Assembly: GCF_000934755.1 (NCBI RefSeq)
Contig: NZ_KN882180.1
Span: 1-64,000, forward strand
Reading direction: 5' to 3'
Length of the DNA: 64,000 bases
Source: Desulfonatronovibrio magnus
Lineage (GTDB): Bacteria; Desulfobacterota; Desulfovibrionia; Desulfovibrionales; Desulfonatronovibrionaceae
Positions 6,563-61,175 of the stretch are shown in pieces. Position 1 is the stretch's first letter; each line of letters opens with the position of its first letter. The notes beneath the pieces are model-generated. The model was not told where the DNA came from and ran no database searches. It was given only the letters and a program-made list of their open reading frames with translations. A program made the position numbers and the translations under genes.

Positions 6563-6838
6563 GGTCCGGGACCGAACCTACGACTAACTTGAAATAGCCT
6601 TAGCGCGAGATTGCTTCGCTTCGCGCGCAACAAGGATTGCCGCGCTCGAAGACTCGCTCGCAATGACACCTGAGCTGACAGGGATGTGGTAACTGAAAAC
6701 CTGTCATTGCGAGGGAGCCTAAGCGACCGAAGCAATCTGTATCGTAAAACCGTAATGCTTTGAATTTATTGCATATACGTTTGTAGTTACTTAGAAGCTC
6801 CTCACCTGGGCGGACCGGGACCGAACCTGTGAGTAACT
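6563..6838. repeat. Modules D and E, copy 1
   Basis: E (about 6596-6785) runs from a GAGATTGCTTCGCTTCGC start through GCTCGCAATGACA and back to CGAAGCAATCT, so its ends are complementary and it can fold as a long hairpin. D (6788-6838, plus a decayed D at 6563-6590) is a roughly 50-bp GC-rich palindrome between AGTTACT and AGTAACT. The short open frames here are not credible genes. Confidence 0.7.
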
Positions 6839-9787: not shown

Positions 9788-9974
9788 GCCCTGAATGACC
9801 AACTTTTATGGAGATAGAGCCAACAATAGGATTTATATGTCAAATGGTTTGGCACATAGGGCTATGTGTGTTAGTTTTTCGTGAAATCAACTGAGCATTA
9901 TTAGGATCTGAAACAAACTTTTAGTGTCAAACGCATATGGTCAAATCCTAACCATAAGATACATATTTGTTTAA

Positions 9975-10150
9975 AAAAGCCAAACCCGCTGAGAGGCGGG
10001 GACGGAAAGCCACGGGCCCATAATTATTGATTGTATTGCTTATTTATTCTAATTGGTTTGCTCACTATTTGGTTAAACAAGCAGGTCGCATAATATGATC
10101 ATAATTATTCCCTCAGTAGATTACATGGGTAGCCGGGTTGCAAGCAAAGT
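9975..10150 (+). ncRNA. Cyclic di-GMP-I (GEMM-I) riboswitch aptamer
   Basis: Conserved pieces are in order: GCCAAACCC; a stem CCCGCT/GGCGGG capped by a GNRA loop GAGA; GGGACGGAAAGCC (consensus GGGACGCAAAGCC) with CACGGGCCC; and the closing GGGTAGCCGGGTTGC at 10127-10141. The P3 arm is unusually long: about 105 nt separate the two halves, and an ATAATTAT on each side can pair. It leads the pilus assembly operon, a known context for this class. Its 3' conserved strand is also the 5' arm of the terminator that follows. Confidence 0.85.
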
Positions 10151-13012: not shown

Positions 13013-13735
13013 GAAGCTTCTCACCGGGGGGCCTGGGATCGAACCTGTGAGTAACTTATACCCCTCGTTCACAGGCTCCAGCCTGGGGACGTTTTGCTCT
13101 TGCGGCTCCAGCCGCTTCTTTGAAATGTGGCTTAAGCCACAAAAAAAGAGGTAATAGCCTCAACACGTTTGAGATTGCCGCGCTCGAAGACTCGCTCGCA
13201 ATGACAGCTGAGGTGTCAGGGATGTGGTTGCTGAAAACCTGTCACCCACGAGGGAGCCTGAGAGACCGAAGTAATCTGTATGGCAAAACCATAATGCTTT
13301 GAATTTATTACTTATTTGGTTTTAGTTACTTAGAAGCTCCTCACCTGGGCGGCCTGGGATCGAACCTGTGAGTAACTGTCTTTAAAGTGGAGCCTGCATC
13401 CTGCAGGCTATTTAATTCCCGGCGGCTGGAAGCCGCCTCCACATTGAAGAACTGTCACTTTTCGGGAAATTGGGACAGTCCCCGCGAGGTACTTTAAAAA
13501 AGATTGATGCTACATTGGTTCCTGGAAGAGATTTTCTTTGATGACAAAATTTACACAGCGAGGGACAGTCCCCCTCCGGGCTGTAAGCCTCCGGGCAGGA
13601 AGCTGTGCCAGGCGCAAAGTTTCCATCTTTGACGGAACTTTTCAGACAAATGTGCATTAATCAAAGCAAAAATCGTCAAAAGATGAAAGTTATAACCATC
13701 TGATTTTATTAGCAAAACGATTGTAGTAAACTATA
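13013..13735 (+). repeat. Mosaic array D-hairpins-E-D-C-A inside the pilus operon
   Basis: In order: D (13013-13060); hairpins built on GGCTCCAGCC or GGCTTAAGCC (13072-13150); E without the small hairpin insertion (13170-13320); D (13325-13378); C (13381-13446, two hairpins inside a GTGGAG/CTCCAC stem); A with the roughly 31-nt module (13446-13735). No gene is visible. The array separates pilO-like from pilP-like genes and could attenuate transcription. Confidence 0.78.
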
Positions 13736-29639: not shown

Positions 29640-30838
29640 AGTTTTAAGATTTAAGTGTTAAGCTCCTCACCCGGGCGGCCCGGGACCGAACATGCGAGTA
29701 ACGTCTTTAAAGTGGAGCCTGCATCCTGCAGGCTATTTAATTCCAGGCGGCTGGAAGCCGCCTCCACCTTTAGTTCTTGCGGCTCCAGCCGCTTCTTCAA
29801 AATGTGGCTGGAGCCACAAAAAAATAGGTGTTCCCAGGCTGGAGCCTGGGAACAAGAGCAAGTATACTGAAATTTGTAAGTGTTTGATTTGATAGTCATT
29901 ACGATTCCAGTTACTTGCAAGCTCCTCATCCGGCTGGCCCGGGACCGAACCTGCGAGTAACTGAAAATGAGTCTCCTCTATGGACATTGGGACAGTCCCC
30001 GCAAGGAAACGTTAAAAAGTTTGATACTGAATTGGTTTTTGGCAAAAATCGGTTTTAATGAAAAAATTTACATAGCGAGGGACAGTCCCTGTGCCAAGCG
30101 CAAAGCTCCCATCTTTGACGGGACTTTTCTGGTAATTGTAAGTGAATCTTAAAGAAAAATCGTAAAAAACTGAAAACCATAACAGCTTGAAATGATTGAC
30201 ATAAAAATGTAGTTACTTAGAAGCTCCTCCCCCGGGCGGCCCGGGACCAAACCTGCGAGTAACTTTAAGACTCTGTCACTTTTCTGGAAATTGGGACAGT
30301 CCCCGCGAGGTACTATAAAAAAGATTGATTCTGCATTGGTTCCTGGAAGAAATTTGCTTTGATGAAAAAATCTACACAGCGAGGGACAGTCCCCCTCCGG
30401 GCTGTAAGCCTCCGGGCAGGAAGCTGTACCAGGCGTAAAGCTCTCATCTTTGACGGAACTTTTCTGGCAAATGTGCATCAATCATGAGAAAAAATCGTCA
30501 AAATATGAAAACTGTAAACATCTGATTTTATTGGCAAAAACATTGTAGTTACTTGTAAGCTCCTCACCCGGGCGGATCGGGACCGAACCTGTGAGTAACT
30601 AAAAAAACAGCCTTAGCACGTTAGAGATTGCCGCGCTCGCCCCAGTTGAATGGCTGCGCCTACACTGCGTGTATTCAACGAGGTAAAAAGAATCGCTCGC
30701 AATGACACCTGAGTTGTCAGGGATGTGGTTACTCAAAACCTGTCACTCACGAGGGAGCCTAAGCTACCTAAGCAATCTGTATGGTAAAACCATAATACTT
30801 TGAATTTATTACTAATTTGGCTTTAGTTACTTAGAAGT
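29640..30838. repeat. Long mosaic array of modules D, C, A and E
   Basis: In order: D (29660-29702), C (29704-29768), GGCTCCAGCC-type hairpins (29775-29862), D (29908-29962), A without the module (29970-30215), D (30212-30264), A with the module (30280-30555), D (30546-30600), E with a small hairpin insertion (30608-30830). Each X module sits between AGTAACT and AGTTACT. No gene was seen. Confidence 0.8.
30645..30679 (-). repeat. Small double-hairpin element H5 inside module E
   Basis: Read on the minus strand: outer stem GTTGAAT with ATTCAAC, hairpin ACAC/GTGT with loop GCA, and hairpin GGC/GCC with loop GCA. An empty site is seen in the E copies at 6640 and 13180. Confidence 0.8.
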
Positions 30839-30854
30839 GTTAAGTGTTAAGTTT

Positions 30855-30978
30855 TAAGAAGGAAAGCAGGGGACAGGCACCCCAACCCTTGTTTTTTGTT
30901 GATGTAAAACACAGATTTAATAAAACAAGGGCTGGAAGAGCCAGTCCCCATGCCACATGCAAAGCGCTAAACAGATAC
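30855..30978 (+). mobile_element. B-family element, left end lost, module absent
   Basis: The interior matches the 53382-53553 copy (an AACAAGGGCTGG block and others), and the right end GCGCTAAACAGATAC is intact. The left end is replaced by a TTAAG-rich repeat. At 30931-30960 it reads CCAGTCCCCATGCCACA, without the CCTCCGGGC module. Confidence 0.7.
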
Positions 30979-30993
30979 AAGAAAATAAGGAAG

Positions 30994-31029
30994 ATTTTTT
31001 TTAAAAACCGAGCATCGGTTTTTAAAAAA
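30994..31029. repeat. 16-bp-stem hairpin with GCA loop
   Basis: A TTTTTTTAAAAACCGA arm pairs with a TCGGTTTTTAAAAAA arm around loop GCA. It directly precedes the double-hairpin elements and uses the same type of loop. Confidence 0.6.
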
Positions 31030-31056
31030 GCTGCCTTTTCATTTGCTGCCTGCCTT

Positions 31057-31094
31057 GTTAAACAGACGTAGTCTCCGTCGCAGACGGGTTTAAC
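31057..31094 (+). repeat. Double-hairpin element H1
   Basis: GTTAAAC (31057-31063) pairs with GTTTAAC (31088-31094). Inside are AGAC/GTCT with loop GTA and CCGTC/GACGG with loop GCA; no base is left unpaired. A further outer stem TTTTCATTTGC/GCAAATGAAAA surrounds it (31036-31046 and 31106-31116). The tail is TGGGT. Confidence 0.88.
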
Positions 31095-31151
31095 TGGGTG
31101 CCCCGGCAAATGAAAAAACTTCTTTCTTCCTTTGTGCCCTTTGCCTGCCCG

Positions 31152-31193
31152 GTTAAACAACGCTGAAAGCGTTCCTGCGCAGCAGGGTTTAAC
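31152..31193 (+). repeat. Double-hairpin element H2
   Basis: GTTAAAC (31152-31158) pairs with GTTTAAC (31187-31193). Inside are AACGCT/AGCGTT with loop GAA and CCTGC/GCAGG with loop GCA, again with no unpaired base. The flanking sequence matches the uninterrupted block at 49310-49345. Confidence 0.88.
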
Positions 31194-31223
31194 TGGACGT
31201 CTTGAGCTCGCCCGGCCTGCCAC

Positions 31224-31255
31224 GTAAAACCGGGGTCCCCCCTGGGGTGTTTTAC
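31224..31255 (+). repeat. Double-hairpin-like element H3 (weaker)
   Basis: GTAAAAC (31224-31230) pairs with GTTTTAC (31249-31255). The interior is a G/C-run palindrome (GGGG-T-CCCC) whose second hairpin is unclear. The tail is TGGGG. Confidence 0.6.
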
Positions 31256-31259
31256 TGGG

Positions 31260-31299
31260 GTTGAATAGACCTTCGGTCTACGGCAATGCCGTATTCAAC
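31260..31299 (+). repeat. Double-hairpin element H4
   Basis: GTTGAAT (31260-31266) pairs with ATTCAAC (31293-31299). Inside are AGACC/GGTCT with loop TTC and ACGGC/GCCGT with loop AAT; no base is unpaired. The tail is TGGGT. Confidence 0.88.
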
Positions 31300-31622
31300 T
31301 GGGTAAATCTTCGAACGGGCGGTGAAAATATCTTTTTTGGGTTGCGGGTACAACCCGCATTAGTCTTGCTTTAATCAGCGAGTTGATGCAGAATTAAAAT
31401 TCATTCGCAAACATAAAAGCTGGTCACCTGGGCAAGATTATGCGTTTCTGAGCACTATGTAATCGTTGAGCCATATGCAGGAGACGCAGGGACTGGCTCT
31501 GGGTTCGAAACAGCCTGTTGTTTATTTTTCCGAAATCGGACTGGCTATTGTTCACGACCAATTAGAGAAGGACACTACAAAAATTTCACAAACTATTAAG
31601 CCAACTCGCTGGATCCATCCAA
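31300..31622. other. Non-coding stretch before the AAA/nuclease gene
   Basis: It holds the end of an F-type repeat (a CTTCGAACGGGCGG block and a GGGTTGCGGGTACAACCC hairpin) and, at 31435-31453, GATTATGCGTTTCTGAGCAC, which resembles the inverted end of the 5178-5377 element. A 63-codon open frame at 31466 has no family features. Confidence 0.55.
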
Positions 31623-33149
31623 ATGAAAAAACTACCCATAGGAATTCAGACTTTTGAAAACCTGATTGATGAAGGCTATTATTACGTGGACAAGACTCAT
31701 TTTGTTCACCAGTTATCCTCAGAGGGCAAATACTATTTCCTGTCCAGGCCGCGCAGGTTTGGCAAGAGCCTGTTTTTGAGCACCATCAAGGCAGCTTTTC
31801 AGGGTAAAAAGGATTTGTTTCAGGGGCTGTTCCTAGAAAATAACTGGGATTGGGACCGGGTAAACCCTGTGGTGCATGTGAGCTTTGGGTCAGGCGTGGT
31901 CCGAAATGTTAGTGAACTTGAGGTTTCATTTGATGAGATTCTTTATGATCACGGACTGAAGTATAATATTGAGTATGTTAAAAAAAGTTTGAAAGGCAAG
32001 TTTGCAGAATTAATTTTCACTTTGCACGAAAAAACAGGGCAAAAAGTTGTCATACTGATTGATGAATATGACAAGCCAGTATTAGACAATATTGAAAAGA
32101 AAGATATGGCTGTAGCCATCCGGGAAGAGCTTAAGAATTATTATTCCGTAATCAAGGATGCTGATCCATATATCAAGTTTGTATTTATTACCGGTGTGTC
32201 CAAGTTCAGCAAGGTGTCCCTTTTCAGTGGGTTGAACAATCTGGAAGATATTACTCTGAATCAGAAGTATTCAGATATATGCGGTTATACCCAAGATGAG
32301 CTGGAGACAGTATTTGCTGATTTTTTAGAAGGTGTGGACCTGAATCAGGTAAGGTTATGGTATAATGGTTATAACTGGCTAGGCAAAGAAGTCTATAATC
32401 CTTTTGACATTTTACTCTACCTTAAATCCAAAGTATTTTCCAATTACTGGTTTGAGACCGGTACGCCAAGTTTTTTAATCAAAATGCTCTATAATGGGCA
32501 ATACAACATACCCGGCATAGAAAATCTTAAGGCTGGAGAAGAGATTGTGGGCAGTTTTGATGTGGAGAATATTACGGCTGAAACCCTGCTTTTTCAGGCC
32601 GGATACTTGACCATTACAGGATTTGAACAGGTTGGATCCTTCAGGCGCTATACACTGACCTATCCTAACATGGAGGTCAAATCCAGTTTAAACAATTCAA
32701 TCCTGAGCACTCTGGCCAAAGACAGTCTGGCCAAAACCAGGAATCAGTCAGATCTCATAGATGCCCTGCTAGGCAATGATCTGGATAGCCTTAAGGATAT
32801 TTTTCATGCCTTTTTTGCTTCCATTCCACATGACTGGTATCGCAAAAATCAATTGTCGAGATATGAAGGTTATTATGCTTCTGTGGTTTATTGCTATTTT
32901 GCAGCTCTTGGGCTTGATGTACGCGCTGAAGAGTCAACCAGCAAGGGGCGCTTGGATCTGGTTATCCGCTTCCAGGGCCGGGTTTATATTCTGGAGTTTA
33001 AGGTTGTTGAGCTTGCAGGTGAAGGCAGACCCATTGAACAGATTAAAGACAGAGGTTATGCAGATAAGTATGTGGGACAGGAAGTGTATCTCATCGGGGT
33101 TGAGTTCTCAAGTAAAGAGCGTAATGTGGTGGGTTTTGAGTGGGAGTGA
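31623..33149 (+). CDS. AAA-ATPase-like / PD-(D/E)XK nuclease protein (DUF1703 type)
   Basis: The 508-residue product is a full-length member of the AAA-ATPase_like plus DUF1703 family: LPIGIQTFENLI at the N-terminus, Walker A-like RPRRFGKS (about 40-47), Walker B IDEYDKP (about 145), FITGVSKFSKVSLFSGLNNL, and a C-terminal PD-(D/E)XK nuclease (GRLDLVIRFQGRVYILEFKV, about 440-460). These genes are multi-copy in many anaerobes and probably mobile or defence-related; the role is unproven. An Rpn fragment abuts the stop codon. Confidence 0.88.
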   Translation: MKKLPIGIQTFENLIDEGYYYVDKTHFVHQLSSEGKYYFLSRPRRFGKSLFLSTIKAAFQGKKDLFQGLFLENNWDWDRVNPVVHVSFGSGVVRNVSELEVSFDEILYDHGLKYNIEYVKKSLKGKFAELIFTLHEKTGQKVVILIDEYDKPVLDNIEKKDMAVAIREELKNYYSVIKDADPYIKFVFITGVSKFSKVSLFSGLNNLEDITLNQKYSDICGYTQDELETVFADFLEGVDLNQVRLWYNGYNWLGKEVYNPFDILLYLKSKVFSNYWFETGTPSFLIKMLYNGQYNIPGIENLKAGEEIVGSFDVENITAETLLFQAGYLTITGFEQVGSFRRYTLTYPNMEVKSSLNNSILSTLAKDSLAKTRNQSDLIDALLGNDLDSLKDIFHAFFASIPHDWYRKNQLSRYEGYYASVVYCYFAALGLDVRAEESTSKGRLDLVIRFQGRVYILEFKVVELAGEGRPIEQIKDRGYADKYVGQEVYLIGVEFSSKERNVVGFEWE

Positions 33150-60339: not shown

Positions 60340-61175
60340 TCATTTGTAAGCTCATCACCCGGGCGTGCGGGACCGATCGTGTGAGTAACTGTCTTTAAAG
60401 TGGAGCCTGCATCCTGCAGGCTATTTAATTCCAGGCGGCTGGAAGCCGCCTCCACCTTGAAGAACTGTCACATATTTGTTCCCCTGGGGCGGCCCGGGAC
60501 CGAACCTGCGAGTAACTGTCTTTAAAGTGGAGCCTGCATCCTGCAGGCTATTTAATTCCAGGCGGCTGGAAGCCGCCTCCACCTTGAAGAACAGTCCCAT
60601 ATTTGGAAATTGGGACAGTCCCCGCGAGGTACTATAAAAGAGATTGATGCTGCATTGGTTCCTGGATGAAATTTGCTTTAATGATAAAATTTACACAGCG
60701 AGGGACAGTCCCCCTCCGGGCTGTAAGCCTCCGGGCAGGAAGCTGTGCCAGGAGTAACGCTCTCATCTTTGACGGAACTTTTCTGGCAAATGTGCATTAA
60801 TCAAAGCAAAAATCGTCAAAATATGAAAATTATAACCATCTGATTTTATTGGCAAAACAACTCCAGTTACTTGTAAGCTCATCACCCGGGCGGCCCGGGA
60901 CCGAACTTGTGAGTAACTAATAATCAGCCTTAACACGAGATTGCTTCGCTTCGCTCGCAACAAGGATTGCCGCGCTCGCCCCAGTTGAATGGCTGCGCCT
61001 ACACTGCGTGTATTCAACGAGGTAAAAAGACTCGCTCGCAATGACAGCTGAGGTGTCAGGGATGTGGTTGCTGAAAACCTGTCACCCACAAGGGAGCCTA
61101 AGCGACCGAAGCAATCTGTATGGTAAAACCATAATATTCTGAATTTATTGGATATTCGATTGTAGTTACGTGTAA
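60340..61175 (+). repeat. Mosaic array D-C-D-C-A-D-E
   Basis: D (60350-60390), C (60392-60470), D (60480-60520), C (60522-60590), A with the module (60598-60865), D (60869-60919) and E with the small hairpin element (60920-61170). The two C copies are close to identical. No gene was seen in the 1.2 kb between the DUF523 and ispG genes. Confidence 0.82.
60984..61018 (-). repeat. Small double-hairpin element H6 inside module E
   Basis: Identical in sequence to H5: minus-strand outer stem GTTGAAT/ATTCAAC with two GCA-loop hairpins. The E copies at 6640 and 13180 lack it. Confidence 0.82.

Follow-up and report, generated by a model that had tools for sequence, protein, structure and literature searches.

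Small DNA junction elements in Desulfonatronovibrio magnus and distant bacteria: a probable family of miniature mobile DNA

The small palindromic junctions present in the window (the whole 64,000-nucleotide stretch of Desulfonatronovibrio magnus DNA that was analysed) were confirmed as described in the original prediction, and the phenomenon proved more extensive than it stated. Their junction fold is kept by compensatory change, their insertion is free of scars and the target sequence recurs. Exact empty and filled sites without a scar, nesting, arrays and insertions within genes therefore led us to regard these elements as miniature mobile DNA, and we consider it likely that they form a non-coding, non-autonomous family whose single-strand fold would be recognised by an enzyme supplied in trans.

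Fold, extent and covariation of the elements

DNA folding gave the predicted architecture, a 7-bp outer stem closing two abutting triloop hairpins with zero unpaired bases, for H1 (31057-31094), H2 (31152-31193) and H4 (31260-31299), with z-scores against dinucleotide shuffles of -3.4, -5.1 and -6.3, respectively. H3 (31224-31255) was indeed weaker (z -0.7, no proper double hairpin; 11.7 bits and E 1.9 against the covariance model), and the variant with one spare base, H5/H6, was found as the element at 30645-30679 and a second copy at 60984-61018, which we took to be the pair previously so named. A covariance model built from 13 real element classes matched H4, H2, H1 and both 30645-type copies in the window, with E values of 3e-13 to 0.001. 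The TGG(G) tail noted after most copies turned out to be the 3' end of the inserted unit, where it pairs with an upstream CCC, and the full unit extends beyond the predicted junction as CCTGCCnn or TTTACCCn, then the junction, then nGGG. The generic unit is about 48-57 bp long and consists of a 4-nt tag (CCTG, CTTG, TTTA or TTCA), CCC, a 7-bp stem (GTTRAAY/RTTYAAC) around a pair of short triloop hairpins whose sequence is nearly free, and a final GGG. The elements of the window are as follows.

30640-30687, minus strand: 48-bp inserted element (core 30645-30679) in target CTCG^AAGA, with GNA loops and the 5' tag TTTA on the minus strand.
60979-61026, minus strand: second copy of the 30640-30687 element, 48 bp, in the same kind of host repeat.
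31049-31098, plus strand: H1, a 50-bp insert, CCTGCCTT-(junction 31057-31094)-TGGG, at host site B inside the loop of a host hairpin, supported by empty and filled copies and by its fold.
31144-31197, plus strand: H2, a 54-bp insert, CCTGCCCG-(junction 31152-31193)-TGGA (elsewhere TGGG), at host site C, supported by empty and filled copies.
31216-31259, plus strand: H3, a 44-bp insert nested in H4 (left arm), CCTGCCAC-(31224-31255)-TGGG, with stem GTAAAAC/GTTTTAC.
31260-31307, minus strand: H4, core 31260-31299 plus TGGGTAAA, the best scorer of the window (59 bits, E 3e-13).

Further copies, for which the original prediction had proposed a search genome-wide and in relatives, were found in both: the covariance model matched 84 times in the genome itself and 86 and 53 times in two relatives. 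The pattern GTTRAAY-N(18-36)-RTTYAACNGG matched the same genome exactly at 84 places on the forward strand and 79 on the reverse, where a reversed control pattern had no match. Copies within one genome are not independent, because host repeats carry them, and it is safer to count classes. Strong covariation was seen when 13 classes, which are partly related and come from several genomes, were aligned without gaps, with a score of 0.519 versus 0.161 in shuffles (0 of 500 reached 0.519) and also far above that of slid structures; 99.1% of its cells pair, both-sided change occurs in 10 of 17 pairs, and RNAalifold, unaided, gave the same junction fold. Pairing is kept while sequence is not, as proposed, and the classes are covarying three-way junctions. 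When 63 unique elements were picked by the end-box pattern alone, 31 of them resolved into a perfect pair of hairpins that left no more than one base over, versus 0.06 with shuffled interiors. The loops, said to be mostly GNA on one strand, are GNA or the complementary TNC in 166 of 278 cases (139 unique elements), and of the 20 unique elements in which both loops are of this type, 17 have them on one strand (17:3).

Covariation of this strength usually points to RNA, and for REPs transcription is plausible and a role as RNA has been considered possible (PMC3733652); the elements could accordingly be read as a conserved structured RNA, such as a terminator or a processing or regulatory element, with pairing kept for RNA function. 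We hold this to be very improbable, as G.T and A.C mismatches are equally frequent on the GNA strand (17 vs 19), whereas an RNA should favour G.U. Likewise, the elements contain no T-run, an Rfam search of the window returned no family for them, and their scar-free presence or absence within repeats and inside coding genes, described below, is at odds with an RNA function. The sole Rfam match was a c-di-GMP-I riboswitch elsewhere in the window (9969-10145, 54 bits).

Some related sequences were also observed. The hairpin CCTGCnnnGCAGG recurs across many classes with differing partner hairpins, as if modules had been swapped. A Cloacimonadota MAG (G447; e.g. C78:9395-9437, C183 and C212) has GTTAAAT...ATTTAAC-GGG ends with interiors of about 20-28 nt and no obvious double hairpin. 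Longer relatives, with stem GTGAAAC/GTTTCAC and an interior of about 75 nt, were seen at locus L232 (G009:C1; 600-700, 2331-2430 and 6435-6530), where they repeat near a Transposase_31 and a short Phage_integrase ORF.

Empty and filled sites in host repeats and in genes

H1 to H4 are carried by a dispersed repeat, and the 30640-30687 element by a second one, of which the window also contains an empty copy.

30956-31367, plus strand: dispersed host repeat, about 300 bp without inserts, carrying H1-H4 at fixed sites.
13153-13220, plus strand: empty site of the second host repeat, junction 13186/13187, aligning contiguously to 30606-30639 and 30688-30837.

The segment 31040-31320 has 45 matches in the genome, in pieces that break exactly at the palindromes. 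Four sites are recognised in the first host repeat, A (empty or 52 bp), B (50 bp), C (54 bp) and D (48 bp), which are occupied in many combinations, and at each of them filled and empty copies differ by one exact unit, with a 0-bp scar and no target duplication. Site B is empty in loci L029-L038 and filled in L003-L022, and site C is empty in L012-L019 and L029-L039. Other copies of H4 are present at L001, L007, L023, L025 and L027, and H3 is missing from the homologous arm in L007, L010 and L013. In the second host repeat, at 13186/13187 and near 6640, exactly the 48 bp of 30640-30687 are missing. Empty sites, which the original prediction had proposed to look for, are thus found in exact form at four positions of one repeat and at one in a second repeat, and these exact differences without duplication define the unit as tag, CCC, junction and GGG. 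The target GAGTCTT^CGARCG is common to two otherwise unrelated host repeats, both of which carry the same element type there. Elements are also nested within one another, in an arm or a loop (L011, L022, L024, L026, L090 and L103). In a relative, Desulfonatronospira sp. CSSed11_143, the units, 54-bp ones like H2 included, form head-to-tail arrays with a period of 54-55 bp, the length of the inserted unit.

As to the surroundings, the first host repeat, present at many loci (L001-L039), is a palindromic mosaic of about 300 bp whose ends lie near TTAG and which contains a perfect 15-bp hairpin at 30997-31029; a plasmid search with its segment 31098-31144 gave no match. Two repeat units spaced by about 335 bp, with GGGACAGTCCC motifs that are present elsewhere in the window too, occupy 30000-30600, and a gene encoding AAA-ATPase_like (PF09820) and PDDEXK_9 (PF08011) domains lies just downstream of the elements (31623-33149).

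Several elements of Moranbacteria are located within the open frames of conserved enzymes, in frame. A pseudouridine synthase contains an exact 18-aa (54-nt) insert that is absent from 6 orthologues (64-70% identity), an aminotransferase has 19 extra residues at the element in comparison with solved structures, and a dimethyladenosine transferase (KsgA) has an insert at the element, with slight local rearrangement, that 7 orthologues lack. A PDB search for a U32 peptidase found nothing. In two same-order relatives, at L079 (G029:C31) and L080 (G045:C13), junction elements disrupt RAYT genes and bring stop codons into them.

The fact that most copies within one genome have spread together with the host repeat counts against the mobility model, and it implies few recent independent hops. 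It also agrees with an explanation in which no transposition takes place and gene conversion, template switching or slippage between host repeats copies the elements along as passengers: most copies in G000 and G009 sit in the same host repeat, the 12-13 bp common to targets in different hosts would favour template switching, and some inserts are chimeric (L008 and L038). Nevertheless, this explanation appears improbable, since the Moranbacteria inserts lie in single-copy genes without a host repeat, one of them as the exact 54-nt gain relative to the 6 orthologues, and since unlike elements have one common insertion geometry.

Distribution, strand polarity and the search for a mobiliser

The pattern was present in 31 of 61 genomes, that of D. 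magnus included, and the covariance model agreed with this distribution. Genomes of the same family had 73 and 48 forward matches, and one genome of the same genus and several families had zero. The carriers comprise Desulfobacterales MAGs, Desulfosarcina widdelii and MAGs labelled Moranbacteria, Cloacimonadota, Bipolaricaulota and Armatimonadota; some of the MAG labels may be binning errors. The strict CCTGCC form was found in only 7 of 395 sampled genomes of the phylum. The most solid case outside the phylum is that of Patescibacteria, where 7 of 8 genomes of one Moranbacteria family have one to five elements, nearly all distinct in sequence; in most of them the ends are complementary over 11 bp. 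The four patterns searched matched no more than five of 2.9 million viral contigs, and carriage by phages was discarded on this count.

On the GNA strand, a tag (CCTG, TTTA or TTCA) stands 5' of the element in 62 of 77 contexts, and the mirror of the tag stands 3' in 18 of 77. Over 171 contexts, CCTG was counted 113 times, TTTA 53, TTCA 38 and CTTG 11. The Moranbacteria elements usually read TTYACCC...GGGTRAA on both sides, and the single case that was resolved suggests that some of this outer sequence is target DNA. Element orientation in G009, set against GC-skew windows as a rough guide to replication direction, was 16:11 and showed no bias, a count that carries no information here, since many copies lie in a common host repeat.

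We propose that the mobile element would move as a single strand in its folded form, which an enzyme provided in trans would recognise. A folded strand is the favoured substrate because what is conserved is the fold, together with the strand polarity of the GNA loops and the tag, with G.T and A.C mismatches equal. The likeliest enzyme class would be Y1/HUH, which would fit because there is no target duplication and the target is 5', no specific gene being tied to the elements. None of the 37 Y1-transposase/RAYT loci checked had an element within 1.5 kb, and no clear link was observed between elements and PF01797 across the 61 genomes; of the 17 genomes searched within the genus and family, six contain elements and no PF01797 match, although four of the six are <90% complete. 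As for IS200-type tnpA ends as a source of the elements, no junction was seen in the flanks of the one full IS200-type tnpA (L040), of which other copies may exist elsewhere, and guide-target complementarity of the IS608 kind was not visible. Taken together, the interpretation in the original prediction, that a folded single strand is recognised, was partly supported: it fits the strand polarity seen in loops and tag, and G.T mismatches are not in excess, but the linked or co-occurring Y1/HUH enzyme to be expected if the best-known mechanism applied was not found and orientation was unbiased. Separately, a cluster of several near-identical RAYT genes was noticed at L256 (G009:C3:276000-292000).

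The presence of PF01797 matches (10 in the D. magnus genome and 31 in G009) would agree with a reading of the elements as a divergent REP/REPIN branch mobilised by RAYT (TnpA_REP), as in Pseudomonas and E. coli. REPs are also short palindromes with an unpaired 5' tetranucleotide tag, tandem clusters and putative excision (PMC3116915, PMC6006769). We nevertheless judge this origin unlikely: the tag is neither GTAG nor CGTC, both of which fall outside the 25 commonest tags in the 171 contexts; the unit encloses in one stem two unlike hairpins of the same polarity (17:3) rather than two inverted copies; Y1/RAYT loci lack nearby elements and six carriers lack PF01797; and the elements in G029 and G045 interrupt RAYT genes and do not flank them.

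Comparison with known systems

A literature search returned no description of this element family; subscription papers were mostly outside its scope, and a prior description is possible. A REP is a single hairpin tagged with GTAG or CGTC; REPs frequently occur as inverted pairs, and it is the GTAG class to which RAYTs are linked (PMC3733652, PMC3116915, PMC6006769). Like REPs and REPINs, the elements are short, tagged, palindromic, dispersed, sometimes tandem and thought to move as single strands, but they form closed three-way junctions, bear different tags and have no RAYT linked to them. Two further candidates were rejected: a MITE of a DDE transposon, for the inverted ends are present but the target site duplication is absent, and an integron attC site, for the boxes are reversed (GTTRAAY ... 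RTTYAAC vs attC 5'-RYYYAAC ... GTTRRRY-3'). Non-autonomous derivatives of IS200/IS605 resemble the elements in the absence of target duplication (0-bp scar at sites A-D), in their hairpins and in a flanking target that is kept and reusable, and differ in that no TnpA-linked copies and no visible guide-target pairing were found here.

Rickettsia palindromic elements (RPEs), of about 150 bp, are in-frame inserts in unrelated conserved genes of a reduced genome (PMC10969869). In-frame insertion in protein genes is likewise seen here, in the pseudouridine synthase (+18 aa), the aminotransferase (+19) and KsgA, although RPEs, compared here by description, are about three times longer than our elements of 48-57 bp with their defined junction fold. 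The double-hairpin elements of fungal mitochondria and related genomes (Allomyces, sponges) consist of adjacent short hairpins with suspected mobility and occasional gene insertion (PMC2800124). These properties are shared by the present elements, whereas the double-hairpin elements are organellar. To our knowledge, neither a GTTRAAY/RTTYAAC closing stem nor a cross-phylum bacterial family is known for them. The small dispersed repeats (SDRs) of cyanobacteria, reportedly described by Elhai in 2008, offer a lead, being very small, structured, precisely inserted in other repeats and nested, but their size (21-27 nt) and structure are different.

A wider proposal, which we put forward tentatively and consider doubtful, is a cross-phylum superfamily that would include some of the smallest mobile elements of bacteria. 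Its hallmark would be a branched DNA fold and not a sequence, with hairpins that can be freely exchanged, and it would be moved by an as yet unrecognised enzyme that reads DNA shape. The conserved fold with near-free sequence links scattered cases (REPs, RPEs, double-hairpin elements and SDRs), in-frame selfish DNA is seen in conserved genes of Patescibacteria, and the exact empty sites in single-copy genes make the recogniser or mover of such small palindromes directly testable.
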